From assembly GCA_007745635.1 (NCBI GenBank), contig CP036272.1, positions 2,783,124 through 2,847,123 on the forward strand: DNA of 64,000 bases, read 5' to 3'. The notes beneath the pieces were generated by a model that saw nothing but the letters and a program-made list of their open reading frames with translations, did no database searches and was not told the origin of the DNA. The DNA is from Stieleria bergensis. Lineage in GTDB: Bacteria > Planctomycetota > Planctomycetia > Pirellulales > Pirellulaceae. The position numbers were made by a program, and so were the translations under genes. Shown here piece by piece: positions 16,237 to 63,957 of this stretch; position 1 is the first letter of the stretch, and each line of letters opens with the position of its first letter.

Positions 16237-16967
16237 GCAAACCCAAGAAACGTAAAGGTAGTCCGCCAAGCCGCGCGTACTTGATCTCCTTTGGAGATAC
16301 CATGACGGCCCTGCTGGCGTTCTTTATCGCGCTTAACTCGCTGGCTCATGAACAAACCGGCGCACACCTCTACTCCGGTACCGGTGCCTTCATTCGAGCG
16401 TTTTCATCCGCAGGCCATGTGGGGCCGTTTCAATCCAGACGATCCAAGCGAGTCATTGCGCAGAATGAACGCGCGCCGCTGTATGCTTTGTCGGAGAACT
16501 TGGATAAAAATCAAGGCAAAGTCGGCCCAGACGAAAAGGGCAAGAACGAGCGCGTGCTGGATCGTGAGAAGGAGCAGTTTCAAAACTTCTTGCATCAATT
16601 GGAGCAGGAGGTCGACTTGAAAACCTTGCCACAACTCTCCGATCAAGTCGTGATCGACTCGTTTGAACGACCTGACAGCGAGACAGGCAAGCTAAGTTCG
16701 CATGCTTCGCAGTTGATCTCCGACGCCATCACGCGACTGCGACAGCCCAATACCACCATGGAGGTCATTTTATGGGCTAACATGCCAGCGGCCATCAGTT
16801 TGAACAAAAAAATGGACGAACTGAAACGGGTGCGGCAGGAGGTCGAGTCGGCATATTGGATGAACGCCAAACAGCGAGCGCGAGTCAAGTATCGCGTCAA
16901 GCCGTGGTTGTTTGCAGACGCCAAACGACCCTATCTATCCGTCGTGATTGGCAAAGAAGGCAAATAG
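16233..16967 (+). CDS. MotB-like stator protein 2 (second paralogue)
   Basis: 244 aa. Basic N-terminus (KPKKRKGSPPSR) then one membrane helix YLISFGDTMTALLAFFIALN with an Asp at residue 22, aligned with the ion-binding Asp of MotB 1. Spacing of basic tail, helix and Asp is that of MotB. The periplasmic part is charged and partly coiled coil; the last ~90 residues alternate strand and helix in a way that could be a divergent OmpA-like fold, but no peptidoglycan-binding motif is seen. Translationally coupled to MotB 1. It may form a heteromeric MotA-MotB1-MotB2 stator or a second stator type. The stop codon abuts an 8-bp repeat array. Confidence 0.75.
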   Translation: MSKPKKRKGSPPSRAYLISFGDTMTALLAFFIALNSLAHEQTGAHLYSGTGAFIRAFSSAGHVGPFQSRRSKRVIAQNERAPLYALSENLDKNQGKVGPDEKGKNERVLDREKEQFQNFLHQLEQEVDLKTLPQLSDQVVIDSFERPDSETGKLSSHASQLISDAITRLRQPNTTMEVILWANMPAAISLNKKMDELKRVRQEVESAYWMNAKQRARVKYRVKPWLFADAKRPYLSVVIGKEGK

Positions 16968-17110
16968 AATCGAGGAATCGAGGAATCGAGGAATCGAGGA
17001 ATCGAGGAATCGAGGAATCGAGGAATCGAGGAATCGAGGAATCGAGGAATCGAGGAATCGAGGAACCGAGGAACCGAGGAATCGAGGAATCGAGGAATCG
17101 AGGAATCGAG
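16967..17110. repeat. 8-bp minisatellite, 18 copies
   Basis: Eighteen head-to-tail copies of GAATCGAG; copies 13 and 14 carry GAACCGAG, and a partial GAACCGAT follows. The first base of the array is the last base of the TAG stop of MotB-like protein 2. It lies between two convergent genes. Because 8 is not a multiple of 3, all frames through it are open and yield spurious NRGIEES- or IPRFLDSS-type ORFs. Confidence 0.97.
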
Positions 17111-17128
17111 GAACCGATTGGGCACTTG

Positions 17129-22095: not shown

Positions 22096-22199
22096 GCCAG
22101 ACTGTTGGACTGCCAGACTGTTGACCTGCCAGACTGTTGACCTGCCAGACTGTTGACCTGCCAGACTGTTGACCTGCCAGACTGTTGACCTGCCAGACT
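22096..22199. repeat. 16-bp tandem repeat, about 6.5 copies
   Basis: Unit GCCAGACTGTTGACCT, perfect from the second copy on; the first has GTTGGACT. It starts 32 bases after the stop of the isomerase-like gene and ends about 90 bases before the DUF218 gene. Confidence 0.95.
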
Positions 22200-50055: not shown

Positions 50056-50871
50056 CTACTTGGCTAGCTGGGCCGCCAGAAATCGCTTGTATTGCTCGGC
50101 GATATGTCCCATGTAGTTCGCCGGTGCAACCTCCGCTGACTGGGTCATGTACTTCAACGCGGGCTTTGTGTTTCCCTGGGCGTCGGCATACAGGCCCAAG
50201 TAAAAATAGCCATAGAACTGAGCCGTGGTGCTGCGTGGCGAGTCTTTGAGCCGATCGATTTCATCCTGAACCGCCTGAGTGTTGCCCGTTTTAAACATTT
50301 GCAACACTTGTTCCATGGTTGGGCGAGGATCGTTCGGCGCGGGTAAGACCTCCTGGTCCGCTTTTTCGGGTGATTGATGCTTGGCCAAGCACAGATAGTG
50401 CCAAGCGGCGTTCTCAACATCGTTCGGATTGACTTCGCGGTGAATTTCAAACTGCTCGACGCCGTCCTTGTATCGCTCGACGAAATACAGTGCGATCCCG
50501 CGTTGCCAGAGAAACGGTTTGCGATCCGGGTGCGCTTTGGCATAGGCATCAAAACCCGGCAACGATTCTTCCACCAAGCCGCACTGCAACAAAAGATCGC
50601 TGGCGTTCAGTTTGAGACGCTCGTTCTTTGTGGTCTCGCTGAGTTTCTTTGCCAGGGCACCGGCCTGGACATACTCCCGTTTCTGCAACAGGTTTTGAGC
50701 ATCACGCAGCATGACCAGTTGGGAGGCTAAATCCTGCACCGCTTCTTCCTGTTGCGCTTCGCCCACTTCCTGAGCCAGGCAGGTTGCCGAGGGCAGCACC
50801 ATGCTGGTCGTGGCTAGCAGGACAGAAAAGCAAAACGTGACAGTAGGGAAGTGGCTATTGGGGGCTGTCAT
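50056..50871 (-). CDS. Exported TPR-type protein
   Basis: 271 aa. Signal peptide (VTFCFSVLLATTSMVLPSAT then CLAQEV). The mature part is alpha-helical with TPR-like pairs: REYVQAGALAKKL, GFDAYAKAHPDRKPFLWQRG, YKDGVEQFEIHREVNPNDVE, FYGYFYLGLYADAQGNTKPA then LKYMTQSAEVAP. A protein-protein interaction role in the periplasm is likely; no enzymatic motif. ATG at MTAPNSHF is chosen for the signal peptide. Confidence 0.78.
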   Translation of the reverse strand: MTAPNSHFPTVTFCFSVLLATTSMVLPSATCLAQEVGEAQQEEAVQDLASQLVMLRDAQNLLQKREYVQAGALAKKLSETTKNERLKLNASDLLLQCGLVEESLPGFDAYAKAHPDRKPFLWQRGIALYFVERYKDGVEQFEIHREVNPNDVENAAWHYLCLAKHQSPEKADQEVLPAPNDPRPTMEQVLQMFKTGNTQAVQDEIDRLKDSPRSTTAQFYGYFYLGLYADAQGNTKPALKYMTQSAEVAPANYMGHIAEQYKRFLAAQLAK

Positions 50872-51018
50872 GAAAGAGCCTGAGGAGGAGGTGAGGTGGG
50901 TTCGTCGGGTGCGTGCAAGCACGGCAGTCGACGTTTTGGTGCGCGGGTGCACGGCAGCCTACGTGTTGGTGCGCGGGAGCTGGCGTACTGCGGAGGTCCC
51001 TGAACTCAGCGATGTTGC

Positions 51019-51585
51019 TTATTGCGCAACGATTTCCAGCAACTCGATCGCCGGTTCACCATCGCAATAAATCAGGGCCGTGCGGCCAAACAGTGTATCG
51101 CCTTCCTGGCACGCAAGGTGGGTTGCCAATTGTGGGCCAGCGGAAAATTTCCACAGCCCGCACAACTGGACTTCACGCAGCACGTTGTGTTGAATCAACA
51201 CTCGGCCAAGAGGAATCTGGCGGGATTCAATTTCCGCCCAGACTTGTGGCGCCAAGGTGTTGACGTCCAGTCTGACGATCCCGTACTGGACGACTTTCCC
51301 GCTGCGGTGCGTTTTTAGCGTGATTTCGCGCGAGTACCAGTCGTGTCCCTGATCTTGATGGCGATGGTGTCGGTGAACGACGACATCCACTGAATCCTGA
51401 TGATGGGACTCGACCGTCACGGTCATATGAGCGTGATGATTGAGCAGTTTGTTGTAAGGCTCTGGCGGTGCATCGGTTGCCTCACACTTGCCTAGCTGAC
51501 TGAATTGATTTGCCGCATCATAAAATTCGGCCAGCAACAATTGAATGTCAACGCGTGCATCGTCTTGAGGAATCAGGCCAGCCAT
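51019..51585 (-). CDS. UbiC/chorismate-lyase-like protein (tentative)
   Basis: 188 aa. The C-terminal ~110 residues (REITLKTHRSGKVVQYGIVR ... PLGRVLIQHNVLREVQLCG ... GRTALIYCDGEPAIELLEIV) follow the strand order of the chorismate-lyase/UTRA-like fold: a substrate lid helix, PLG, a long strand, and R..LIY..G.P..EL. Chorismate lyase makes 4-hydroxybenzoate for quinones or phenolic head groups. The identity is by pattern only and could be wrong. Its neighbour, a polyprenyl synthetase, starts 148 bases downstream on the same strand. Confidence 0.45.
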   Translation of the reverse strand: MAGLIPQDDARVDIQLLLAEFYDAANQFSQLGKCEATDAPPEPYNKLLNHHAHMTVTVESHHQDSVDVVVHRHHRHQDQGHDWYSREITLKTHRSGKVVQYGIVRLDVNTLAPQVWAEIESRQIPLGRVLIQHNVLREVQLCGLWKFSAGPQLATHLACQEGDTLFGRTALIYCDGEPAIELLEIVAQ

Positions 51586-51733
51586 AAAAAAAATCTGCGT
51601 TCAGGAACCAAGTCAACGTGATGGATGGATTCACTGACTCGCGCAGGCAGTGAATCGTGTGTCAGTCAGTCCCGAGATGGAATGTGGCTGCTGAAGCCAC
51701 TCGGCGAGTACGCGGTGATTCAGCCGCAGTGAA

Positions 51734-53659
51734 TCAGGCCAACGGCACGGTGACTTGCAAGGGCACCACGGCGGGGGCTGGCATCTCAAGACGTTCCAGG
51801 ACGGTATCGACCAAATAATATAACAGACGCCGCAGTGCCTCGGGTTCGATTTGATCGGCAACCTGTTCGGCGCGTTGCTGGTGTTTGTCGACCAGTCGCA
51901 GCGCGGTTTCGAAGACGCCTGCTTTGTCGTACAACGCTCGGACTTGGTTCAATCGTGCTGCGGCTGGCAACTCACACTCTGGCGACGCCAGGGCGAGCAG
52001 TTTGTCTTTGGACGTTGGATTCAGGGATTCCAGCGCCAACGCCCACAGCAAGGTGGGGCGTCCACCGAAGAGGTCTTGGCCGGCCATCATTTTGTTGTGA
52101 TCGTCACCGGCAAAGTCGCCCAAGTCGTTCAGGATTTGGAAAGCCACGCCCAGGTTTCGACTGAAGGTGCGAATCGCGTCACGGTATTCTTTGGGATCTG
52201 CATCTGGCACCTTATCGCAACCCAAGCGGATACCGCTGAACAGGGCGGCTTCGAAGGCCGGCGAGGTCTTGAGTGCGTAGATCTTGAGCGCATCGAGCGG
52301 TGTCAGGTGGAGCTCGGTTCCGTCACGCCACAGCAGTTCAGCGCCCTGCCCTTCACCCAGACGCATGTGGGCGGCAGCCAAGCAATCGAGCACATCGAGT
52401 TGCGCTTCAGAGCTTGAAGCAGACATTCCCGGCCGATCGCTGATCATGCGATAACCCAGGCCAACCAGATAATCGCCCACGTTGATTGCCGTCGGCGTAC
52501 CAAAGGTCTTGTGCAGCGAGGGTTGGCCATATCGGAACGCATCGTCATCTTCGATGTCATCGTGGACCAAGCTGGCTTTGTGGAACGTTTCGATGCTCAT
52601 CGCAGCCCGGCGAACGCTCTCGGGTAGTTCCGCCAGCGACTTGGCCGCTTCGTGACCCGTGCAATCACCGCCGGCCATTGCATCGTAGGCCGCTAGCGTG
52701 ATAAAGGGACGGGAGTGCTTGCCGCCCCGTGTCAGGAAGTCATAGGCGATGTGTTCGGTCGCGCTGACAGCGTCCATCTCGGCAACCGCCTGGGCAGTCA
52801 ATGGATCGCCGCCGACGGGTTGTTTCTCTCGCACACGCGGAACAACATCGTCCAGATGTTCGGGTTGAAACAGATCGCTGGCAGCACGCATCAAGTGCAC
52901 ATAGCTACGAGTCTGTTGCTTGGCTGGCACATACGGCGTGCGAATCATTTGGTCGACCCAAGGTTCGTCCACCTTGGTGTTACGACAATCACTGCTCAGC
53001 AATGGAACCGCCATGCAGGGAATTCCGGCCAACAAGACTTTATCGATGGCCTTTTCCAAAACGTTCAAGCAGGCGACACCAATTACAGCGTCCACATAGC
53101 CACCGACAATGATTTTCATCACGACTGGAGAGCCTTCGGCGACCAGAACGCGATAGCCCATGTCTTCGGCCAGTCCGCGAAAGTCCGCGATGCTGCACGC
53201 GCCGCACTCTTTGCAGTTCATTCCGAATTCGTCGTATTCCGCTGGACAGCCTTCGGCATGTTTCAAGCAGTGCGGTAACAGAAACAGACGTCGTTCCGGG
53301 GGAACCGCCTGAAGCTCGTGCCGCCAAAATGAGCCACTGATCATGACCATGATCCAGCCGAGATAGCTTTCTGGCAGATCGGCTTCTTCCAAGGTGCGAC
53401 GGGAGATCTGCTCCAATTCGTCCTTGCTCATGGGGACACTGCGGTCTAAACGATCAGCGACCGCTTCACAACGTGCACGTAACGAATCACGCAGTTCTTG
53501 CGTTGGCGGGACTTCTTTCAAGTGGCTTGTCTTGCGACGTCGCTTGCTACCTGAAGAAGCACTGGGGGCGGTGTTGCTGATTCCTGTCGACAAACCAATG
53601 ACCTCTGGGCGGTGAACTTGGTGATGCTGTTTGTGACAAGCCCGAGCAGCGATGGACAA
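51734..53659 (-). CDS. DUF116-polyprenyl synthetase fusion protein
   Basis: 641 aa, two domains. N-terminal DUF116 (~75-280) has a Cys-rich signature: PHCLKHAEGC, NCKECGACS, later SSDCRNTK, suggesting a metal or Fe-S site. The C-terminal half is a trans-isoprenyl diphosphate synthase: GGKHSRPFITLAAYDAM, first Asp-rich motif VHDDIEDDD, KTFGTPTAINVGDYL, then the second motif NDLGD (first Asp replaced by Asn) in FQILNDLGDFAGDD and GGRPTLLW. It should elongate allylic diphosphates. The start is uncertain: TTG at 53659 gives the longest form; the first ATG lies inside the protein at residue 77. Directly upstream is a terpene cyclase-like gene. Confidence 0.88.
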   Translation of the reverse strand: MSIAARACHKQHHQVHRPEVIGLSTGISNTAPSASSGSKRRRKTSHLKEVPPTQELRDSLRARCEAVADRLDRSVPMSKDELEQISRRTLEEADLPESYLGWIMVMISGSFWRHELQAVPPERRLFLLPHCLKHAEGCPAEYDEFGMNCKECGACSIADFRGLAEDMGYRVLVAEGSPVVMKIIVGGYVDAVIGVACLNVLEKAIDKVLLAGIPCMAVPLLSSDCRNTKVDEPWVDQMIRTPYVPAKQQTRSYVHLMRAASDLFQPEHLDDVVPRVREKQPVGGDPLTAQAVAEMDAVSATEHIAYDFLTRGGKHSRPFITLAAYDAMAGGDCTGHEAAKSLAELPESVRRAAMSIETFHKASLVHDDIEDDDAFRYGQPSLHKTFGTPTAINVGDYLVGLGYRMISDRPGMSASSSEAQLDVLDCLAAAHMRLGEGQGAELLWRDGTELHLTPLDALKIYALKTSPAFEAALFSGIRLGCDKVPDADPKEYRDAIRTFSRNLGVAFQILNDLGDFAGDDHNKMMAGQDLFGGRPTLLWALALESLNPTSKDKLLALASPECELPAAARLNQVRALYDKAGVFETALRLVDKHQQRAEQVADQIEPEALRRLLYYLVDTVLERLEMPAPAVVPLQVTVPLA

Positions 53660-53846
53660 GTCGTGGTCGCTGCGTTGGGCAGTAAGGTGGGTGTGTGGCG
53701 CGCGGTGTCGTCAAAACAGTTTGTAAAACGTTTTGAGTGCTCTAGCAGCGTTCAGTGATGTTCAGGCAATCGCGGACGCGCTCGTGGCCCCATTGACCGA
53801 TCGGCAGCGCCGATTGAGACGTTGCGGGGCGATCGCTGCGGAGTTG

Positions 53847-55973
53847 TTATTGAGGCCATTCGGGGTCGTGTTGCGGGGCGGTACAACGCAGGAACTTTCC
53901 CAACGCAGCGGCAGTAAAAATGCTGGGGTAAAGTCGCTCATGGTACCATAATTTGGCAAAGTAAAAACCGATGGGCCACGAGATCCGGTGGCGCCGGTCG
54001 TCAACACTCTGTACCAAAAATGTCACTCCGGACAGTATAGCCGCCAGCAATGCCTGAGTCTCACTGTCATCGCCTGGATGCCAGGCAAATCCCGAGGTTT
54101 CCAGCGAGTTCGTTTCAGGCGGTCGACTGCGCTCAGCAGTTTCAAACCCTTTGGCGGACACATCGGACCGGTATTCTTGTTGGGATTTGTCTCTCAGCCG
54201 CAGAATCACGGTTGCCAAGGCGTCGACCGCCAACGCGGTTTCTTCAACGCTACTGATTAGGCCTTCTGGGATAAGTGTGTGGGCAGAGGACTCGTCGGGA
54301 GCCTGGTTTTCGGATGCTCTGGCGAGTTTCTCAACCATGCTATTGCCGCCCCCCCAGCCGCCGTCGGGATTCTGATTTTTAATCAGGAATTCTGCCGCCA
54401 GTTGCTGTGCTGCAGGTGGCAATTGAGACGCCATCAGCACCTTTGCCGTGCCGTAAATCGGATTTGATTCGTCGTCCCGATCTTGGTTGCCAAACCACAG
54501 TGGGTTCCAGCTGCCGTCTGTTTGTTGTTGCCGATCCAGAAAACGAATGCCTTGTTGGACTGCTTTGTGCGATCGCAGCGACGCGTCCGGGGCAAGTTGC
54601 TGGAGCGCTCGCATGGCATGTGCCGTTAAGTCCGTGCTGCTGCGGTCAAAAGGCAGCTTGCCCCAGCCCCGACAGAACGTAGGCCAGCCTCCGTTGCGAT
54701 TTTGGAGTTGCAACAACCAGCGCCCGGCCAGCAGGGTGGCTTGATCGATTTCGGCATTGAGTTCTGCTGAGCAAGAAGGTTTGGACAACAGCAGGGCCAG
54801 GATTGCCGCCGGAGTGTCATCGCTGTCGGGCACGGCGCCCGAGAGATCCGTCCATCCCCAGCCGCCCGGTCTTGCCCCCGTAAACGGATGCGGTTTGAGA
54901 TGCTGGCACGACAGATGCCAGCGAATAAGTGCTTCATCGCACCAGCTTCGATCGTCCTCTGGGTCACACGCCAGGGCATGCATCGAAAGTGAGGTGACCC
55001 AAGTTGCCAAATTGGTATCAATGGGCCAGCTGCCTTCATCGCGCATCGAGTCGCGCAAGAACTTCAGGCCCTCCTGAACGACGCTCAGCGATGTTCGTCC
55101 GGTGGCCGCGAGGCTCATCACAACAAACGCGGTCAGAGGCGTGGCTTCTAAATAACCACCGCTTTCCGGCTGCATCCGACGAAGCACCTTGAGCGTTGGG
55201 TTGATGCTCAGGTTGCGAATCACGCGCAGGGGGAACCAAGTTTTGCGGCCCAGTAAATGCCGAGCCTGGCCAATGGCAACCAAAGCCGGAATCGCGTAAC
55301 TAACCACAGGCATGCTTAAAAAGCGATACAGACTTTGAGGGAACACGGCGGCTTCAAAGGGCAGCGCTGGCACTTGATCCCAGGAGATCAACCCGGCAAT
55401 CGCCAAGTTGTTCATGATCGGAACCACAAAGGTTTTATCCTTGCCGTAACGTCGCCTTAGGCCATCGAGTTTCCCGGCGCGTTCGATGTAGGCGTTCAGT
55501 CGTTTTAAACTCTGCTCGCTGAGCCCTGGTCGGCCAATCTTCTCTGCCAGCGTCGATGCAGCGACGGCGAGGTAACTGGTGGCAATGTTGGAATGGCTGC
55601 GATCGGTATCGCCAAAGCCGCCATCATCGTTCTGTTGCTGTTGCAGGTAGGCGATGCCTCGGCTGATCAGATGTGGTAAATCGTTGTGTTGATCAGTCGT
55701 TGTTTTAGCGGTTTGATCAGATAAAAGTACAGCAGTAAAGGCGCTGATCGCGGTCGCGGTGCTCAGTGCGCTGGCGGCCAGTTCACCTTCCCAGTGGCCC
55801 TGTTCGTTTCGCTCAATAAGCAGTTCGTGACGCACGACATCCAATGCTCGGCGAGCTTCATCGCGGGCGTCATTTAGATGATTCTGGCTGGCTGATGTTT
55901 GCTGGGGCGGGTCAGCGCCAGGGGGCGACTGCCCGAGAGCCGTCATTTCGGTGGAAGGAATTGTCGATGCCAT
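53847..55973 (-). CDS. Squalene-hopene-cyclase-like terpene cyclase
   Basis: 708 aa, of the prenyltransferase/squalene-oxidase-repeat (triterpene cyclase) family. Several QW-type motifs: GGFGDTDRSHSN, GGWPTFCRGWGKLPFDRSST, GSWNPLWFGNQDRDDESNPI then YGTAK, GGWGGGN. The protonating motif is DSDDTP (Asp383-Ser-Asp385-Asp386), equivalent to DxDDTA of squalene-hopene cyclases. Cyclises squalene or a related linear polyprene; product unknown. Near full length for the family. ATG start. It precedes the polyprenyl synthetase in the same direction after 187 bases; the repeat at 56018-56136 is at its 5' side. Confidence 0.87.
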   Translation of the reverse strand: MASTIPSTEMTALGQSPPGADPPQQTSASQNHLNDARDEARRALDVVRHELLIERNEQGHWEGELAASALSTATAISAFTAVLLSDQTAKTTTDQHNDLPHLISRGIAYLQQQQNDDGGFGDTDRSHSNIATSYLAVAASTLAEKIGRPGLSEQSLKRLNAYIERAGKLDGLRRRYGKDKTFVVPIMNNLAIAGLISWDQVPALPFEAAVFPQSLYRFLSMPVVSYAIPALVAIGQARHLLGRKTWFPLRVIRNLSINPTLKVLRRMQPESGGYLEATPLTAFVVMSLAATGRTSLSVVQEGLKFLRDSMRDEGSWPIDTNLATWVTSLSMHALACDPEDDRSWCDEALIRWHLSCQHLKPHPFTGARPGGWGWTDLSGAVPDSDDTPAAILALLLSKPSCSAELNAEIDQATLLAGRWLLQLQNRNGGWPTFCRGWGKLPFDRSSTDLTAHAMRALQQLAPDASLRSHKAVQQGIRFLDRQQQTDGSWNPLWFGNQDRDDESNPIYGTAKVLMASQLPPAAQQLAAEFLIKNQNPDGGWGGGNSMVEKLARASENQAPDESSAHTLIPEGLISSVEETALAVDALATVILRLRDKSQQEYRSDVSAKGFETAERSRPPETNSLETSGFAWHPGDDSETQALLAAILSGVTFLVQSVDDRRHRISWPIGFYFAKLWYHERLYPSIFTAAALGKFLRCTAPQHDPEWPQ

Positions 55974-56329
55974 GGTATTAGTATAGTCGCCCCGGCTAGA
56001 GCGCCGTCAGTGCTTTCGAGTGGCGAGTGGCGAGTGGCGAGTGGCGAGTGGCGAGTGGCGAGTGGCGAGTGGCGAGTGGCGAGTGGCGAGTGGCGAGTGG
56101 CGAGTGGCGAGTGGCGAGTGGCGAGTGGCGAGTGGCGCTTGCTGCCAGGCTTCCGTGTTGGTAGGCTCACGGTTGATGAGTGCAAAGCATCGCGAGCGAC
56201 TGCAGAACCGGCCAATTCCGGGGCTTTCGGCCCTGTTTAGGCGGCGTTTTGCGGGCTGCATTTGGATTTCCGCGTGTGCTCAATGCCTGCAGCAGACCGA
56301 ACTGACCCATCTAACGAAAAATCGCATCC
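55974..56329. other. 356-base divergent promoter region with heptamer repeats
   Basis: Between the cyclase gene (leftward) and the ketoacyl synthase gene (rightward). It contains a 119-base heptamer array and no gene. Promoters for both directions must be here, so array length could affect expression. Confidence 0.5.
56018..56136. repeat. 7-bp minisatellite, 17 copies
   Basis: Seventeen perfect copies of GAGTGGC, no variants. It lies between divergent genes. Heptamers translate in all frames (ASGEWRV or LATRHSP), which explains long spurious ORFs. Confidence 0.98.
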
Positions 56330-57592
56330 GTGATCGCACCAAATTTGGCCTCCAAGCTTCCTGACGAACAACGCATTGTCATCACTGGAATTGGTTTGAC
56401 GGCGCCCAACGGCAACGATTGGGGAAGCTATCGCGAAGCGCTGCTGAACAAGCAAAGTGGCGTGCAGCCGTACGAAATTCGCTACTTTGGCGAGACGCTT
56501 GCTGGGATCTGTGATTTTGACGCCAAGCGTTATCAGTCCAAAAAAGACATCCGTCGCGGGACACGGGCTGGCAGCGTGGGGGTCTACGCTGCCAATGAGG
56601 CGGTCAAGAATTCCGGCATCGATTGGGAAAATACCGATAAGTCGCGCGTGGGCATTTATGTTGGCGTGACCGAGCACGGTAATGTGGAAACCGAGAACGA
56701 AATCTACATCATCAAAGGCTTTGATTACGACACCAGCTGCTGGTCGCATCACCATAACCCTCGGACGGTCGCTAACAATCCGGCCGGTGAAATTGCTTTG
56801 AACATGAGCATCACCGGGCCGCACTATACGATCGGAGCGGCCTGTGCGGCGGGTAACGCAGGATTGATTCAGGGTGCACAGATGTTGCGTCTTGGCGAAT
56901 GTGACTTGGCGATCGCGGGTGGTACCAGTGAAAGCGTTCACACCTTCGGCATTTTTGCCAGTTTCAACAGCCAGAACGCGCTGGCGACTCACGAGGATCC
57001 AACCAAGGCATCACGCCCGTTCGATGTTGATCGCAACGGCATTGTGGTTTCCGAAGGAGGTTGTTTGTACACGTTGGAACGTCTCAGCGACGCCAAGAAA
57101 CGCGGGGCCACTATTATCGGCGAACTCGTCGGCTATGGCATGAACACCGATGCGACGGACTTTGTCCTGCCGAATCCCGAACGTCAGGCCCAGTGCGTGC
57201 AGATGGCGCTTCAGCGTGCTGGAATTCAAGCCGAAGACATCGACATTGTCAGCACGCACGCCACCGGCACCAGCAGCGGTGATCTCCAGGAATGTGCCGC
57301 CTTGCGAAAGGTTTTTGGCGAGTGTGAAACGGTGCACATCAACAACACCAAGAGCTACATCGGTCACGCGATGGGTGCCGCTGGTGCACTGGAGTTGGCT
57401 GGGAATTTGGCTTCGTTTGACGACGGCGTGATCCATCCGACGATCAACGTGGATCAGCTTGATGAGGGCTGTCGGCTGCCCGGCTTGGTTCTCAATGAGC
57501 CCAAAGAAGGTTGTCAGGTGGATTATGTTCTCAACAACTCGTTCGGCATGCTGGGCATTAATTCGGTCGTGATCATCGCTCGGTATTCGTGA
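56330..57592 (+). CDS. Beta-ketoacyl-ACP synthase (FabF-type)
   Basis: 420 aa condensing enzyme. VVITGIGLTAPNGNDW near the N-terminus. Active-site triad Cys172 in IGAACAAGNAG, His310 in STHATGTSS, Lys341-His346 in NNTKSYIGHAMG; all present. It begins with GTG at 56330. A typical FabF has TACA(T/S)G at the Cys; here it is AACAAG. Context (ACP next, CrtI-like oxidoreductase after) suggests a specialised synthase rather than the housekeeping FabF. Confidence 0.92.
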   Translation: MIAPNLASKLPDEQRIVITGIGLTAPNGNDWGSYREALLNKQSGVQPYEIRYFGETLAGICDFDAKRYQSKKDIRRGTRAGSVGVYAANEAVKNSGIDWENTDKSRVGIYVGVTEHGNVETENEIYIIKGFDYDTSCWSHHHNPRTVANNPAGEIALNMSITGPHYTIGAACAAGNAGLIQGAQMLRLGECDLAIAGGTSESVHTFGIFASFNSQNALATHEDPTKASRPFDVDRNGIVVSEGGCLYTLERLSDAKKRGATIIGELVGYGMNTDATDFVLPNPERQAQCVQMALQRAGIQAEDIDIVSTHATGTSSGDLQECAALRKVFGECETVHINNTKSYIGHAMGAAGALELAGNLASFDDGVIHPTINVDQLDEGCRLPGLVLNEPKEGCQVDYVLNNSFGMLGINSVVIIARYS

Positions 57593-57934
57593 AAAACGAG
57601 CTGCTGATTGCCCGGTCTGCCATCTGGGGGATCGCGCCGGTGGCGATATTCGCTGCTGAGCGGGATTTTCGCCGTTGCAGGCCCTACGAAACCGCTGGCC
57701 GCTCCGGTACACTCTTACCCACCTCCTGACGCTGAGAGAGCGTCGGGACTTGAGCGGCGTGCCGTGTTGGCAACCAGTCTCTGCGACCGGTCCGAACCGT
57801 CAGTCATTTGATTGATGCTCGGTCGATCGTGCCAACTGGCTGCTGTGCTGCAGACACCGTCTGCCAGCTGCTAAGCGCTCGCTCACATCCAGATGATCAA
57901 CTAACCGCATTGTAGAACTGAAAGCCCAATAGCG
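57593..57934. other. 342-base intergenic region between KS and ACP genes
   Basis: No convincing gene. A 46-codon frame beginning GTG overlaps the ketoacyl synthase stop by four bases, but its product has no recognisable character. A short GACGCT...AGCGTC hairpin lies near 57732. Confidence 0.4.
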
Positions 57935-58195
57935 ATGACACCTGCTGAAATCCGCGACGAAATCTTGGACATTTTGGAAGACATCTCACCCGATGAGGAC
58001 CTCGATGGTCTGAAGGACGATGTTGCCTTCCGTGATCAATTGGAATTGGACAGCATGGACTTCTTGGACATCGTGATGGAGCTTCGTAAACGCCACCGCG
58101 TTCAGATTCCTGAAGAGGAATACGGGGCGTTGGCCAGCATGGCAACAACGGTGGAATACCTTGAGCCAAAAATGAAAGACATTGTAAAGTCTTAA
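57935..58195 (+). CDS. Acyl carrier protein
   Basis: 86 aa, acidic, all-helical. Phosphopantetheine attachment Ser40 in LELDSMDFLD, matching the DSL motif with Met for Leu. Helix IV contains YGALASMATTVEYLEPKM. Carries acyl intermediates for the ketoacyl synthase just upstream. Longer spacing (342 bases) from the synthase suggests its own promoter. Confidence 0.93.
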   Translation: MTPAEIRDEILDILEDISPDEDLDGLKDDVAFRDQLELDSMDFLDIVMELRKRHRVQIPEEEYGALASMATTVEYLEPKMKDIVKS

Positions 58196-58344
58196 TCATT
58201 GCATCAATCTGGGACGCATCCTGACTTTGCCAAGGCGGCGTTGGGATGGGCGTTTTGGTGACACCGTGACGTGATCATTCAAGTTCGCCAGCGCCCAGAT
58301 TGACTTCCCTTGGTTTCCGACAGTTTCATTCGGCGGGATCAATT

Positions 58345-59766
58345 GTGTCAGCTTCGACCGACGGCAATCATTACGATACCATCATTATCGGGGCCGGGAT
58401 GAGCGGTCTGGCCGCAGGCATCCGCTTGGCGCACTTCGATCAGCGTGTTTGCGTTCTTGAACGCCACTACACCATCGGTGGTTTGAATTCGTTCTATCGC
58501 ATGGGCGGTCGTGACTACGACGTTGGCCTGCATGCGATGACCAATTTCGCTCGCCGCGGCCAGAAAAAAGGGCCGCTGGCCAAATTGATTCGCCAGCTGC
58601 GATTTCGCTGGGAAGATTTTAAGCTTGCCGAACAAATCGGCTCCTCCATTCGCTTTCCAGGCGTCTCGTTGGACTTCACCAACGACATTGAACTGCTCGA
58701 ATCACAGATCGCAGCTGAGTTCCCCGGTCAAGCGGACGGGTTCCGCATGTTGTGTGATTCCCTGTTGGATTATTCCGACATGGACGGCGACGATCCACGC
58801 TTCATGCGTTCGGCACGAGAGGTGATGGCAGAACACATCACCGAGCCATTGCTGATCGAAATGCTGCTTTGTCCGCTGATGTGGTACGGCAATGCTCGCG
58901 AAAATGATATGGACTTTGGTCAGTTCTGCATCATGTTTCGCGCTTGCTATCTAGAAGGCTTTGGCCGGCCTTACAAAGGCGTGCGGATGATCCTGAAAAA
59001 CTTAGTTCGCAAGTTTCGCGGACTTGGTGGTGAACTGAAGCTTCGCAGTGGTGTGTCATCGATTCACGTCGACAATGATCGCGCCGTCGGTGTGGTGCTG
59101 GACAATGGCACCGAATTAACCGCTGATCGGATTTTGTCGTCCGCGGGAAATATTGAAACCTTACGGATGTGCGACGATATCACTGAAGTCGATGTCGCTG
59201 CGGCCGGGAAGCTATCCTTCATCGAATCCATTTCGATCTTGGATCGGATGCCACAGAAGTTCGGTTTTGATCGCACCATCGTCTTCTATAACGATAGTGA
59301 AACCTTCCACTGGAAACGCCCCGAAGATCAGCTCTGTGATTCCCGAACCGGTGTGATTTGTTCGCCCAATAATTACATCTATGACGAAGACGAAGGTGAG
59401 CTGCCCGATGGCGTGATTCGGATCACAACGTTGGCCAATCACGATCATTGGTGCGACCTTTCGGATGATCGTTACCGTGGGGAAAAGGTGCGGCAGTATG
59501 ACGATGCCGTCGCATCATCGGTGCGCTTTATGCCTGATTTCAGGCAGTACGTCATTGATACTGACGTGTTCACTCCCAAGACCATTCGTCGCTTTACCTG
59601 GCACGACAATGGCGCCGTTTATGGAGCGCCTGATAAGCAGCTCGACGGGACCACTCATTTGCCGAACGTCTTCTTGTGTGGCACCGATCAAGGCTTTGTC
59701 GGTATCGTGGGCGCGATCGTCAGTGGGATCAGCATGGCCAATCGCCACTGTCTGCAGCCCACCTAA
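58345..59766 (+). CDS. CrtI/phytoene-desaturase-like FAD oxidoreductase
   Basis: 473 aa from GTG at 58345; the frame is open to a TTG 45 bases earlier, so the start is not settled. Rossmann FAD site YDTIIIGAGMSGLAAGIRLA and ERHYTIGGLNSFYR; the family-typical YDVGLHAMTNFA follows. C-terminal FLCGTDQGFVGIVGAIVSGI then SMANRH binds FAD. Relatives are phytoene desaturase, CrtISO and retinol saturase, acting on polyene or acyl chains. It lies after the ACP gene; ladderane loci of anammox planctomycetes combine the same types of gene. Confidence 0.85.
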   Translation: MSASTDGNHYDTIIIGAGMSGLAAGIRLAHFDQRVCVLERHYTIGGLNSFYRMGGRDYDVGLHAMTNFARRGQKKGPLAKLIRQLRFRWEDFKLAEQIGSSIRFPGVSLDFTNDIELLESQIAAEFPGQADGFRMLCDSLLDYSDMDGDDPRFMRSAREVMAEHITEPLLIEMLLCPLMWYGNARENDMDFGQFCIMFRACYLEGFGRPYKGVRMILKNLVRKFRGLGGELKLRSGVSSIHVDNDRAVGVVLDNGTELTADRILSSAGNIETLRMCDDITEVDVAAAGKLSFIESISILDRMPQKFGFDRTIVFYNDSETFHWKRPEDQLCDSRTGVICSPNNYIYDEDEGELPDGVIRITTLANHDHWCDLSDDRYRGEKVRQYDDAVASSVRFMPDFRQYVIDTDVFTPKTIRRFTWHDNGAVYGAPDKQLDGTTHLPNVFLCGTDQGFVGIVGAIVSGISMANRHCLQPT

Positions 59767-59823: not shown

Positions 59824-61788
59824 TTAGGAAGTCTTTTTGCGAGCTTCCATGCCGGCCTTTAGGGTCGCAATGATCTCGTCGACATCGTACACGCTGCCGC
59901 CCCACGCGCCGCCGCCAACCTGCTGAAGGGCCGCCCATAAGCGAGTGTCATCGGGCAAGTCCTGCTCTTCTTTTAACTGGGGATGATCCTTGCGTTGGGT
60001 CAATGCGGTCTCGACGGTTTGGCCATCGATGCACTCAACCAGGTTTACTGTCCCAATTAATTGGTTGCGATCGACTTCAATCTCGATGATGTCTCCGTCC
60101 CGCACTTTGGCGATGGGGCCGCCAGCCAAGGCTTCCGGGCCGACGTGGCCGATGCATGCACCGGTGCTGACTCCGGAAAATCGCGCGTCGGTGATCAGAG
60201 CGACCTCTTTTCCAAAGCTCAAGTACTTTAGCGCTGACGTGATTTGATACGTCTCTTCCATGCCGCAGCCAAGCGGACCACGCCCGATCAAGACAATGAC
60301 ATCGCCGGCTTTGATTGGCTGGTCGGCTTGTCCCTTGACGGCCGCGATCGCGTCACGCTCGCTGACGAAGACGCGCGCCGGTCCGCGTTTGCGGTACACG
60401 TCATCATCGTCAATCACAGCGGGATCAATCGAAGTGGCTTTGATGACCGAACCTTCGGGGCAAAGGTTGCCAGTGGGGAAACAAACCGTTGGTGTCAGCC
60501 CTTTGCTAGTGGCCTGGGCGGGAGGCACGATCACGTCATCGGGATCAATGCCGTCAGCGTCCAGTAATCGTTGCCTGCAGATCTGTCTGCGATCGCTGGC
60601 ATGCCACTGATCAAGCAACTGGTCCCAGGTTTGCCCCGAGACGGTTTTGGCTTGGCTTTTTAGGAGCCCCAGTTCTCGCAGGTGCCAGGCGACTTCAGGG
60701 ACACCGCCGGCAAAGAAAAATTGGACCGTTGGATGCCCCACCGGACCGTTGGGCAGGCAGTCAACAAACCGGGGCACCGACAAATTGATCTCATTGAACG
60801 CCGCTGCATCGGGACGCGGCAAACCAGCCGCGGCGGCAATCGCAGGGATATGCAGCAATAAGTTTGTGCTGCCACCGACGGCCGCATGAATCAACATCGC
60901 ATTGTAAAAGGAATCTTCAGTCAGAATATCGGATAGGGTCAGCCGGTTGGCGACCATGTCCATCGCTGCGTCGGCGCTGCTGCGGGCCATGCTTGTCCAG
61001 ATCGGGCTTCCGCTGGGTGATAACGCCGCATGTGGCACGGTCATGCCCAGGGCTTCGGCAACGACTTGACTGGTCGCTGCGGTGCCTAAAAACTGACACC
61101 CACCACCGGGGGAGCCACAGGCGCGGCAACCTTCCAAGGAGGCCTGTTCTAACGACATCTCACCACGACTGTAGCGAACGCCGATTGATTGGACTTTGCC
61201 GGTGTCTTCGCCAACGGTGGCCGGCAAGGTGACTCCACCGGGGATCAATACACTTGCCAGTGAGCTTGAACCAGCCAGGGCCATCATCATCGCTGGCAAG
61301 CCTTTGTCGCAGGTGGCGATACCAATGATCGCTTTGCGCTGCGGTAGCGAACGAATCAGCCGACGAAACACAATCGCAGCGTCGTTTCGATACGGCAGTG
61401 AATCAAACATCCCTCGCGTCCCTTGGCTGCGCCCGTCGCAGGGGTCACTGCAATAGGCGGCGAAGGGAACTTTCTTTTGCGTGTTCAGCTGATCTGCCAC
61501 GGCTCGGACCAGCAAACCAATTTCCCAGTGCCCGGTATGGTAACCCAGTGCAACGGCGGTACCATCTTCGTCTCGTAAGCCGCCTTGCGTGCTAAGAATC
61601 AAGTACTGGTCACCAAGCACTCGTCTGGGATCGAAGCCCATGCCAACGCTTTGCGTCAGACCAAACAAGTCACCCGAAGACCAGTCGCGAAGGATTTCAT
61701 CGGACAACGGCAAGGCACCCTGTGGTCCTGGGGCGTGGGTCAGCAATTGCTGTGGGTCTTCAGGGGCCGGAAAGAGATTCAGTGACAT
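59824..61788 (-). CDS. IlvD/Edd-type dehydratase, YjhG/YagF-like (sugar acid dehydratase)
   Basis: 654 aa. Fe-S dehydratase of the IlvD/Edd superfamily; length and sequence fit the D-xylonate dehydratase YjhG/YagF group. Landmarks: [51 protein letters not shown] (Fe-S Cys), [20 protein letters not shown], and the C-terminal [23 protein letters not shown] at MSLNLFPA is preferred over an upstream in-frame ATG 47 codons earlier because it fits the family length. The gene runs opposite to the KS-ACP-CrtI cluster and is probably unrelated to it. Confidence 0.9.
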
Positions 61789-62013
61789 GATCAGTCCAGG
61801 CGGGGCGGTTAGCTGAACGCGCGATGCAATCCAGCAAGGAGGGGAGCTCGAATCCGCGCCGGCCGAACGACCGACGATTCGTGCCCATTGATGCGGCAAG
61901 CAAAACGAGGCCGCGCGGGAACGCCACACGCGGCAGTTGCTCTCTAGCAGAACACTGATAGGCGTCGCTGTCGACCGGGAATCTGCGACAACGACGTTCG
62001 CTCAGTCGGTGGA

Positions 62014-63957
62014 TCAGTTGCCCAAGCCTGGCAGTGGGCCAAATCCACCAGGTGGCTGGAAACCAGGGCGAACCGGCCCCAGTGGCGGTTGCACTGCGTT
62101 GGCTCCTTCGAACAGATTGTCCCGAGTCAGACGCAACTTGGAATAGGTGCTTTCGGGAATCTCGTAGTACCAGTCAGCGAAGCGTTGATTGAGTTGCTGG
62201 CTCTTTAGCTGAGCCGTGGCCATTCGATCCTTGCGTTCTTCCAGCAAACGCGCGTTGGCTTTCTGAATTTGCTCTTGGATCACAGCCAGCTTCTCTGCCT
62301 TTTCTTCGTCCGTCAGTTCGACGGGCGCTTCGTCCTCTTGAAAGGCTTGCCCGACCACGGTTTCCTGACCGCTACCGCTGGTTTCCACTGCAGCTGCATC
62401 GGATTTGTTGTCCGCGTCGGCGGCCGTCTCTTCAGCCGATTCGGTGGCTGGTGCCTCGCCTTCAGCTGCTGGTTGATCGGCGTCCACTTTCGGGTCCGCT
62501 GGCTTGTCTTTGTCGTCGGCCGCTGGAGGCTGCGGTTTGCTTTCGGAAGTGTTTTCTTCGGCTGGCTTCTCAGTGGCTGGCTTCTCAGTGGCTGGCTTCT
62601 CAGTGGCTGGTACTTCGGTGCCTTCGGCTTCCTGGGACTCAATGATCATGCCAGGTGGTAGCGAAGGGCCCGCTGCCGCAGCAGCCGCTGCGGCCTGAGC
62701 TTTCTCCCACTCTTCCAAGGTTTGTGGAATCGGTTGCAGCGCGGGGGCGGGGAAGAAGGAGTCGTCAACGGACGTGGTGACCATCAGGTAACGGTTGACG
62801 CCTTCTTGGGCGGCTTCGCTGGCAGCTGCCTCGTCACCTTCTTCGGGCTGTGTGGTCAGGCCACTGATGTTGCCAAAGTACAGGGTGTACTTGACGCCAT
62901 CGACGGTGCTTGCAGAGAGTTCGCCATTGGCCGAAACAATCTTAAACTCACCATCGGCGTTTTTGGTGGGAAAGAAGCCTCTTGTGAACAAGCTGGCTTG
63001 CGCTTCTTTGTTATTCGCCAGATCTGAATCGGCTTTCAAATCAGCGCTCAACCCTTCGGGCTTGCGTTTCACATCGACAAACTTCAGGTCATCCAGTGCG
63101 TCGACCAGTTCAGTGATGGTCGTCGCGTTCACTTTTTCCGGATCGAACTTAGGCTGTGTCGGTGGTTGATTGGGGTTGGCGGGGTCGTAGCGTTTCAGGG
63201 ACAGGAGTTTCCAGTCCGCGCCATCCTTCTCCAGCACAGCGGTCTGGTTCTTTGCGTAGCGATTGCCGTTGACGGTAACGGAAAAGCTGTAATTGTCCGA
63301 TCGGATTTGTTGGACATCGATGCTGGAAAGCTGCAACAAGTCGGCTTCGATCCACGCTTGAAAGTTACTGGTGATGGTGGCTTCGTCCAGGGCAACGACG
63401 TACACAGGCGATTGTCCTGGCTTGCGCACGTAAAGTTGCCCGGGCTGATCCTTAACGGGTTTACCGATGATCAGCGACGCGATGGTGTCACGTTTTTCGT
63501 CTTTGAAGGTCACCAGTTTGCCAACGCTACTGTCGGCGGTTTTCACCGAGTCTTCGGTTGGATCGATGACTCCCATTTCCTTGTGATCACCGGCGTTGTC
63601 GGTGGGGATATCCAGAACGGTAAGGTCAATCAAGCCATTAGCAGCCGTCTTCATTTGATTCACGGCATCGGCTGGATAGTCCGCTCGCGACGGAATCGTC
63701 CAGACCTTCGACGACGGGTTCTTGCGAACTTCAAACGTCACGGGCTTGCCGGTGTCAGCATCGAAACTGACGATCTTTAGCTCCGTTGCAGCCAGCGGAT
63801 CAGTGAAATCTTTGAATAGCGGTTGATTCCGCAACGCCTCCAGTCCGTCTTGCTCGACATCCGTGGTGGATGGTCGGACGATCAGGAAGGAAGCAGTCGC
63901 CATCAGCAGACCCGCTGCTAAAAAGATACCGGTCTTGGTTGTATCGTTAACCGACAT
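62014..63957 (-). CDS. DUF4340 domain-containing membrane-anchored protein
   Basis: 647 aa. N-terminal membrane anchor TGIFLAAGLLMATASFLIV, then a large extracytoplasmic part. The DUF4340 repeat pattern is visible: PVTFEVRKNPSSKVWTIPSR, KTAANGLIDLTVLDIPTDNA, LYVRKPGQSPVYVVALDEAT, DWKLLSLKRYDP, KYTLYFGNIS. A Pro/Ala/Glu-rich insert with (ATEKP)n repeats follows (~450-540), then a coiled-coil C-terminus. DUF4340 proteins often lie next to ABC-2/GldG-type transporter genes; those would be beyond the right edge of the window. Confidence 0.85.
   Translation of the reverse strand: MSVNDTTKTGIFLAAGLLMATASFLIVRPSTTDVEQDGLEALRNQPLFKDFTDPLAATELKIVSFDADTGKPVTFEVRKNPSSKVWTIPSRADYPADAVNQMKTAANGLIDLTVLDIPTDNAGDHKEMGVIDPTEDSVKTADSSVGKLVTFKDEKRDTIASLIIGKPVKDQPGQLYVRKPGQSPVYVVALDEATITSNFQAWIEADLLQLSSIDVQQIRSDNYSFSVTVNGNRYAKNQTAVLEKDGADWKLLSLKRYDPANPNQPPTQPKFDPEKVNATTITELVDALDDLKFVDVKRKPEGLSADLKADSDLANNKEAQASLFTRGFFPTKNADGEFKIVSANGELSASTVDGVKYTLYFGNISGLTTQPEEGDEAAASEAAQEGVNRYLMVTTSVDDSFFPAPALQPIPQTLEEWEKAQAAAAAAAAGPSLPPGMIIESQEAEGTEVPATEKPATEKPATEKPAEENTSESKPQPPAADDKDKPADPKVDADQPAAEGEAPATESAEETAADADNKSDAAAVETSGSGQETVVGQAFQEDEAPVELTDEEKAEKLAVIQEQIQKANARLLEERKDRMATAQLKSQQLNQRFADWYYEIPESTYSKLRLTRDNLFEGANAVQPPLGPVRPGFQPPGGFGPLPGLGN
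62561..62620 (-). repeat. 15-bp in-frame repeat (ATEKP) in the DUF4340 gene
   Basis: Unit GCTGGCTTCTCAGTG (plus strand), three exact copies at 62561, 62576 and 62591 and a fourth diverged at 62606. Encodes ATEKP repeats in the linker; multiple of three, so frame-neutral. Confidence 0.95.

Follow-up and report, generated by a model that had tools for sequence, protein, structure and literature searches.

A 64,000-nucleotide stretch of the Stieleria bergensis chromosome (bases 2,783,124-2,847,123 of a single-contig genome of 7.1 Mb; hereafter the window) holds two unrelated gene modules that are neighbours in only one genus, and one of these points to a planctomycete route to polycyclic isoprenoids that may bypass squalene. 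The first module comprises a squalene-hopene-cyclase-like class II terpene cyclase (CYC) and a fusion of the DUF116 domain with a polyprenyl diphosphate synthase (PPS), accompanied in the window by a UbiC-like protein; the second comprises a FabF-type beta-ketoacyl synthase (KS), an acyl carrier protein (ACP) and a CrtI-like oxidoreductase dependent on flavin adenine dinucleotide (FAD), here termed CRT. CYC and DUF116-PPS are linked and are co-inherited with a radical S-adenosylmethionine (SAM) enzyme, a ferredoxin-like protein and a GcvH-like protein encoded elsewhere; their catalytic motifs are intact, and many carriers have them with no match to a squalene synthase. We put at roughly 55% the probability that the genes of this first module are the clustered members of a planctomycete pathway in which a long prenyl diphosphate passes to a DxDD cyclase and then to the radical SAM set, in a manner resembling the formation of sporulene or hopanoids.

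The separation of the two modules was established in a sample of 60 genomes ranging from the genus to the order level (the order sample), in which orthologues of CYC, KS and CRT were tabulated. A CYC call required E <= about 1e-87, and the 11 genomes with weaker or no matches were scored as lacking it; CYC was thus found in 49 genomes, KS in 53 and CRT in 52. KS and CRT occurred together in 52 genomes, with KS alone in one and neither in seven (phi 0.93), and lay within 5 kb of each other in 43 of the 52 that have both, whereas CYC and KS, co-present in 45 genomes, were distributed nearly independently (phi 0.23). CYC and KS lay within 6 kb of each other in 11 genomes, all belonging to the window's genus (11 of the 13 with both, window included; KS is apart from CYC in G004 and G008, where handles of this form denote individual genomes), and were neighbours in none of the 32 genomes outside that genus that hold both. 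Throughout the order KS keeps company with CRT, whereas it adjoins CYC in the window's genus only; the modules are independent. Two further members of the genus depart from its usual arrangement: CRT lies 1.3 Mb from KS in G012, and the draft genome G009 has no orthologue of KS or CRT. A sequence-only reading of the same DNA had joined all six genes in one hybrid isoprenoid/acyl pathway. In favour of that proposal, CYC and KS are divergent neighbours in 11 of the genus's 13 genomes that have both, but the synteny and co-occurrence seen beyond the genus led us to reject it; the apparent hybrid is a local neighbourhood effect, and a single pathway is extremely improbable.

The isoprenoid operon embedded in that proposal is supported, CYC being accompanied by DUF116-PPS and, in most Pirellulales-type loci, by UbiC. 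Among 80 CYC loci taken from planctomycete records (two titled only "bacterium"), whose neighbours were sought with tblastn, DUF116 lay beside CYC in 73 and UbiC in 61; clustering of open reading frames, applied to the 67 loci longer than 9 kb, showed that gene content outside the operon varies. A second sample of 195 Planctomycetota genomes, each at least 90% complete (the phylum sample; CYC call at E <= 1e-20), contained CYC in 49 genomes and DUF116 in 80, 50 of the latter having it in a fusion-length frame, defined as an open frame of at least 579 aa with a DUF116 match, the PPS half being checked in part of these genomes. This frame and CYC were both present in 49 genomes and both absent from 145; the frame occurred alone in one (G124), which lacks CYC and the three partners and keeps a diverged fusion (34% in DUF116, 48% in PPS). 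CYC and DUF116 lay within 8 kb of each other in 46 of the 49 CYC genomes, the exceptions being G221 and G241, of one genus, and G150. Plasmid records yielded 49 with weak CYC matches, none covering 80% of CYC.

Sequence motifs of the two enzymes were counted in rows of at least 500 aa. The DxDD aspartates D383, D385 and D386 of CYC, together with H452, were present in 97 of 97 rows and align to PDVDDT and TAH of 1gsz; the aligned histidine of the squalene-hopene cyclases (SHC) is the partner of the DxDD motif in protonation, so that CYC has both the motif and the histidine of a class II (SHC-type) terpene cyclase. At positions -5 and -4 relative to the first Asp-rich motif, the PPS domain has Ala and Ser, respectively, in 90 of 90 rows. 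Small residues at these positions mark long-chain prenyl synthases, and by this rule the sequence does not appear to be of the type that makes farnesyl diphosphate (FPP). DUF116, with seven invariant cysteines, is presumed to be a metal or redox domain; its predicted fold found no PDB match at E <= 0.001 (best 0.021). In the fusion, DUF116 occupies residues 92-239 and PPS residues 304-558, and the Pfam scores for the two (PF01976, 134.5 bits; PF00348, 138.6 bits) are far above cut-off; the listed start codon is TTG, and the true start may lie further downstream.

DUF116 also occurs as a standalone protein, seen in nine of 11 fetched loci (L266-L272, L274 and L276; eight of family f50 and one of f76). 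There it adjoins genes of the peptide deformylase (def) and methionyl-tRNA formyltransferase (fmt) types in all nine loci and is followed in seven by an RsmB-type gene, annotated with a hidden Markov model in L266 and assigned by clustering in the rest. This context was considered as a hint to function, and the def and fmt neighbours gave no help.

Three further proteins are inherited with CYC, although in the source genome they are scattered away from it. Across the phylum sample the radical SAM enzyme was found in 49 genomes, 48 of them with CYC, each occurring alone once (phi 0.973); the ferredoxin-like protein in 50, with CYC in 49 and alone in one (phi 0.987); and the GcvH-like protein in 46, with CYC in 45, alone in one and missing from four CYC genomes (phi 0.931). 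Radical SAM matches weaker than 1e-150 were not counted (six, spanning 2.6e-75 to 9.4e-51 and including a second copy in G150), nor were GcvH matches weaker than 1e-36. Physical proximity is frequent: the radical SAM gene lies within 20 kb of CYC in 25 of 48 genomes and the ferredoxin-like gene in 35 of 49. Loci of other planctomycete families contain longer gene runs around CYC, such as L241, where a single run encodes a cysteine desulfurase, the GcvH-like protein, a CobW GTPase, a 118-aa protein, the ferredoxin-like protein, the radical SAM enzyme, DUF116-PPS, a single toroid and CYC. Eight families mix carriers and non-carriers, and in them the set travels together, the exceptions named here aside; in G227 all three partners are present and the contig ends inside DUF116. 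The radical SAM partner has CxxxCxxC in 10 of 10 rows and scores better with NirJ and AhbD models than with that of HpnH (37 of 225 bits for HpnH). The GcvH-like proteins are set apart from other GcvH matches by a score gap and have both the GCV_H domain (PF01597 in the two members scanned) and a lysine, Lys81, in 11 of 11 rows, which is the candidate lipoyl site; they are presumably lipoylated carriers.

Within the pathway that we favour, the PPS domain would build an all-trans prenyl diphosphate of C25 or more, and CYC, in the manner of squalene-hopene and tetraprenyl-curcumene cyclases, would protonate the chain end through DxDD and cyclise it. The radical SAM enzyme would then modify the ring product with electrons from the ferredoxin-like protein and perhaps DUF116, the lipoyl carrier acting alongside; in Pirellulales, a hydroxybenzoate head group may come from the UbiC-like protein. 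Such a pathway would yield a polycyclic isoprenoid membrane lipid or a meroterpenoid that does not derive from squalene, its chain length, the order of steps and its identity being predicted from sequence.

Several observations weigh against this pathway or temper the counts behind it. DUF116 was not found beside CYC in seven of the 80 loci, of which L053 and L055 reach a contig edge and L073 and L089 extend about 2 kb downstream, while L063, L066 and L069 lack DUF116 with over 4 kb of sequence downstream of CYC. G222 has CYC and no radical SAM enzyme; the four CYC genomes without the GcvH-like protein are G052, G082, G150 and G222; and the weaker radical SAM matches include five in genomes without CYC. 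Co-occurrence is favoured by thresholds for the radical SAM and GcvH-like proteins that were set post hoc at score gaps, and by queries for these two and the ferredoxin-like protein that came from loci fetched around CYC or DUF116-PPS; genomes of the same clade, moreover, are not independent in the counts. A squalene or phytoene synthase match accompanies CYC in 35 of the 49 CYC genomes of the order sample, and UbiC is absent from 14 of the 49 CYC genomes of the phylum sample and present in seven without CYC. The long chain proposed for the PPS product is predicted from the rule for positions -5 and -4, substrate and product are likewise predictions, and we do not claim a flavodoxin-like or other named fold for DUF116, which had no confident PDB match.

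The most familiar alternative is that CYC is a divergent squalene-hopene cyclase making ordinary hopanoids, with PPS giving FPP to the HpnCDE route to squalene. Hopanoids have been reported from planctomycetes, and the part of PMC8303584 that concerns such clusters reads them in that way; CYC, moreover, belongs to the SHC family and has its DxDD motif. The sequence-only reading was right that the window encodes no squalene or phytoene synthase, yet the source genome has a pair of PF00494 genes about 1.9 Mb away (C1:899706-901396), in addition to two PF00348 enzymes besides DUF116-PPS. PF00494, which covers the known squalene and phytoene synthases, had matches in 44 of the 60 genomes of the order sample. 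Ordinary hopanoid synthesis calls for squalene synthesis genes wherever the cyclase occurs, but no PF00494 match was found in 14 of the 49 CYC genomes, including the single-contig G042 (96% complete); nine genomes had PF00494 without CYC, and the two were uncorrelated (phi -0.09). Because 14 of 49 CYC genomes are without such a match, squalene is unlikely, on this sequence evidence, to be the general substrate of CYC. Scores with cyclase models are also low, at 81.4 bits against a cut-off of 431.1 for squalene-hopene cyclase (TIGR01507), so that the hopene cyclase cut-off is not reached, and 103 against 323 for squalene/oxidosqualene cyclase, and the PPS does not appear to be of the FPP type. 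We consequently disfavour an ordinary hopanoid cyclase and regard this explanation as unlikely.

The UbiC-like protein invites a different account, in which its product would be 4- or 3-hydroxybenzoate; a UbiA enzyme would attach to this the prenyl chain made by PPS, and cyclisation of the tail by CYC would give a meroterpenoid. Its identification agrees in part with the sequence-only reading: the predicted structure (mean pLDDT 83) has the fold of chorismate lyase and also matches DUF98 and UTRA domains, but the protein has no Pfam or NCBIfam match; 23 members of its family gave no Pfam match under E 0.001, and a profile of the family against PDB sequences none up to E 10. R86 and E184 are invariant and may be the catalytic Arg/Glu pair of UbiC. 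The frequency of UbiC beside CYC (61 of 80 loci), the chorismate lyase/DUF98-type fold and the presence of UbiA-family proteins in all 60 genomes of the order sample favour the meroterpenoid. Against it, UbiC was found in 42 of the 195 genomes, in 35 of the 49 with CYC and seven without, and sits no more than 10 kb from CYC in just eight of those 35; the fold is common to UTRA ligand-binding domains; and no UbiA appeared among the annotated neighbour clusters (not all clusters were annotated). We dropped the assignment of UbiA to the pathway as the family is too general, and rejected UbiC as a core member; it is an accessory one. This meroterpenoid route we judge doubtful. Following UbiC, usually directly, in one locus (L112:9372-10634) and 10 others is an FAD enzyme of the geranylgeranyl-reductase/halogenase type (annotated in L112), which may tailor the product. 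A third account would have the co-inherited set build or repair a metallo- or sulfur cofactor, with the isoprenoid an anchor or a minor part. The cysteine desulfurase, CobW and GcvH-like genes that stand in a run at some loci outside Pirellulales accord with this, as does the prediction, in the passages of PMC5898192 on DUF116, that the domain is a metal-binding electron-transfer protein; yet few pairs are as constant as CYC and the DUF116-PPS frame, and among the loci inspected CobW and the desulfurase stand beside CYC in some lineages only, and we consider a cofactor role improbable.

The second module has its own coherence. In 20 loci of other genera, picked for having KS, ACP follows KS in all 20 and CRT follows ACP in 18, with a second CRT-like match in nine; clusters annotated in L144 and L154 as FabZ, FabI, OleD-like and OleC-like recur in some KS loci. 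KS scores 321 bits against 494 for the fabF equivalog, and in a tree its 19 orthologue rows (18 from clustering, window included, and L302, a re-fetched duplicate of the L153 row) fell on the opposite side of one branch, with support 100/100, from 19 other FabF-type copies (two of the three further KS of the source genome and 17 from relatives). The tree program warns of long branches meeting at this split, and the housekeeping copy was not told apart from the others; as far as tested, KS does not group with housekeeping FabF, an identity that we disfavour, and it appears to be a FabF-type enzyme distinct from the other KS copies. The name CrtI-like holds for CRT at the level of the amine-oxidase family PF01593 but not beyond, the protein reaching the cut-off of none of the 25 NCBIfam families shown (the best match being carotenoid isomerase, 93 bits against 587). 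KS-ACP-CRT probably belongs to a set resembling type II fatty acid synthesis (FASII) that forms unsaturated (polyunsaturated) acyl chains or hydrocarbons. In L154:5405-16225 and L144:3976-11240 the module gains another CRT-like gene together with FabZ and FabI; both loci also carry OleD-like genes, and L154 has an OleC-like (beta-lactone synthetase) gene. These extended versions are a candidate route to polyunsaturated long-chain hydrocarbons.

All six genes of the sequence-only reading were borne out as genes by family matches and conservation, and they are listed with the three partners in Table 1. In the cyclase search, the best matches among named records bore the titles Rhodopirellula, Stieleria and Roseiconus (the search may omit the source genome itself).

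Table 1. Genes and domains of the two modules and the partners of CYC. Coordinates are positions in the window, except those prefixed C1, which lie elsewhere in the source genome.
Feature	Coordinates	Strand	Remarks
UbiC-like protein	51019-51585	-	188 aa; chorismate lyase/UTRA-type predicted fold; last gene of operon in Pirellulales form
DUF116-polyprenyl diphosphate synthase fusion (DUF116-PPS)	51734-53659	-	641 aa as listed; PF01976 + PF00348
DUF116 domain	52925-53479	-	seven cysteines invariant in 39 rows
CYC, squalene-hopene-cyclase-like class II terpene cyclase	53847-55973	-	708 aa; DxDD at residues 383-386, H452; PF13243 103.6 bits, PF13249 48.9 bits
KS, FabF-type beta-ketoacyl synthase	56330-57592	+	first gene of KS-ACP-CRT module
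ACP, acyl carrier protein of KS-ACP-CRT module	57935-58195	+	PF00550 26.1 bits, cut-off 20.8
CRT, FAD-dependent CrtISO/CrtI-like oxidoreductase of KS-ACP-CRT module	58300-59766	+	amine-oxidase PF01593 57.5 bits
Radical SAM enzyme	C1:5003486-5004676		co-inherited with CYC
Ferredoxin-like protein	C1:543662-544672		co-inherited with CYC
GcvH-like protein	C1:4726932-4727438		co-inherited with CYC

Flanking the two modules are a tetratricopeptide repeat protein with a weak NlpI-like match (50056-50952), which adjoins the CYC operon in 18 loci including the window, a YjhG/YagF-type D-xylonate dehydratase (59824-61929; 1079 bits, cut-off 808) and a DUF4340 protein (62014-63957; 72.7 bits). The region between CYC and KS contains a perfect 7-bp tandem repeat, CGAGTGG (56017-56137; 17.3 copies, 100% match), and near-perfect short arrays occur elsewhere in the window at 2537-2759 (14 bp x 15.9), 16967-17117 (8 bp x 18.9) and 22096-22199 (16 bp x 6.5).

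The membranes of Planctomycetota are unusual, and a cyclase that can occur apart from squalene synthesis, yet is co-inherited with four partners, provides a defined gene set for their study. Tentatively, and with less confidence than we place in the pathway itself, we suggest that it operates phylum-wide and turns a long isoprenoid other than squalene into polycyclic lipids of a new class, the skeleton coming from the DUF116-fused synthase and CYC and being finished through radical chemistry by the radical SAM, ferredoxin-like and lipoyl-carrier trio, possibly with sulfur insertion or a new carbon-carbon bond. Were the product such a new lipid, the reading of planctomycete membranes and of sedimentary terpenoid biomarkers would change; the pathway, if true, would also give a role to DUF116 and to a radical SAM subfamily.

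Comparison with described systems places both modules near known chemistry. KS-ACP-CRT resembles the FASII clusters of anammox bacteria and Desulfotalea, for which ladderanes or polyunsaturated hydrocarbons have been proposed, in bringing together KS, ACP, phytoene-desaturase-like FAD enzymes and FabZ (PMC2649909, PMC4790861), a likeness of gene content; the Kuenenia desaturase-like proteins are reported to have had no CrtI-like activity in Escherichia coli. Unlike those clusters, the planctomycete loci include OleD-like genes (L144 and L154) and an OleC-like gene (L154); no radical SAM gene was seen among the annotated genes of these two loci or the scanned genes of the window, the neighbours in other KS loci being unannotated. 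Of the first module, a fusion of the same kind has been noted in Pirellula staleyi (Psta_0175; PMC5898192, section 3.6), in an account that proposes electron transfer and, in that passage, makes no mention of a cyclase, whereas here the fusion is linked to CYC. Planctomycete clusters of polyprenyl synthetase and terpene cyclase have so far been read, where PMC8303584 treats them, as hopanoid or carotenoid clusters, and none of the titles and abstracts of open-licence PMC articles listed by our searches described CYC with DUF116-PPS, or with the radical SAM, ferredoxin-like or GcvH-like partners, as a pathway. The UbiC-like protein shares the fold of the chorismate lyase UbiC/DUF98 family with no Pfam or NCBIfam match in sequence. 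The sporulene (sesquarterpene) route of Bacillus (HepS/HepT, YtpB, SqhC), as outlined in PMC7839719, offers the precedent of a long-chain prenyl diphosphate synthase feeding cyclisation without squalene; the proposed likeness lies in such a synthase supplying an SHC-family cyclase, the planctomycete genes showing linkage within 8 kb in 46 of 49 genomes and the long chain being predicted from the residues at -5 and -4. The planctomycete set differs in that PPS is fused to DUF116 and that the radical SAM, ferredoxin-like and GcvH-like proteins are co-inherited. With the hopanoid pathway (HpnCDE, SHC/HpnF, HpnH) it has in common an SHC-family DxDD cyclase and a radical SAM partner, as HpnH is; HpnH catalyses adenosyl transfer to hopene. 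It differs from that pathway in that the presence of CYC needs no squalene synthase match and in the poor fit of its radical SAM partner to HpnH. Claiming membership in neither pathway, we suggest that the planctomycete set would operate as the Bacillus route does and would resemble HpnH in its radical SAM partner.

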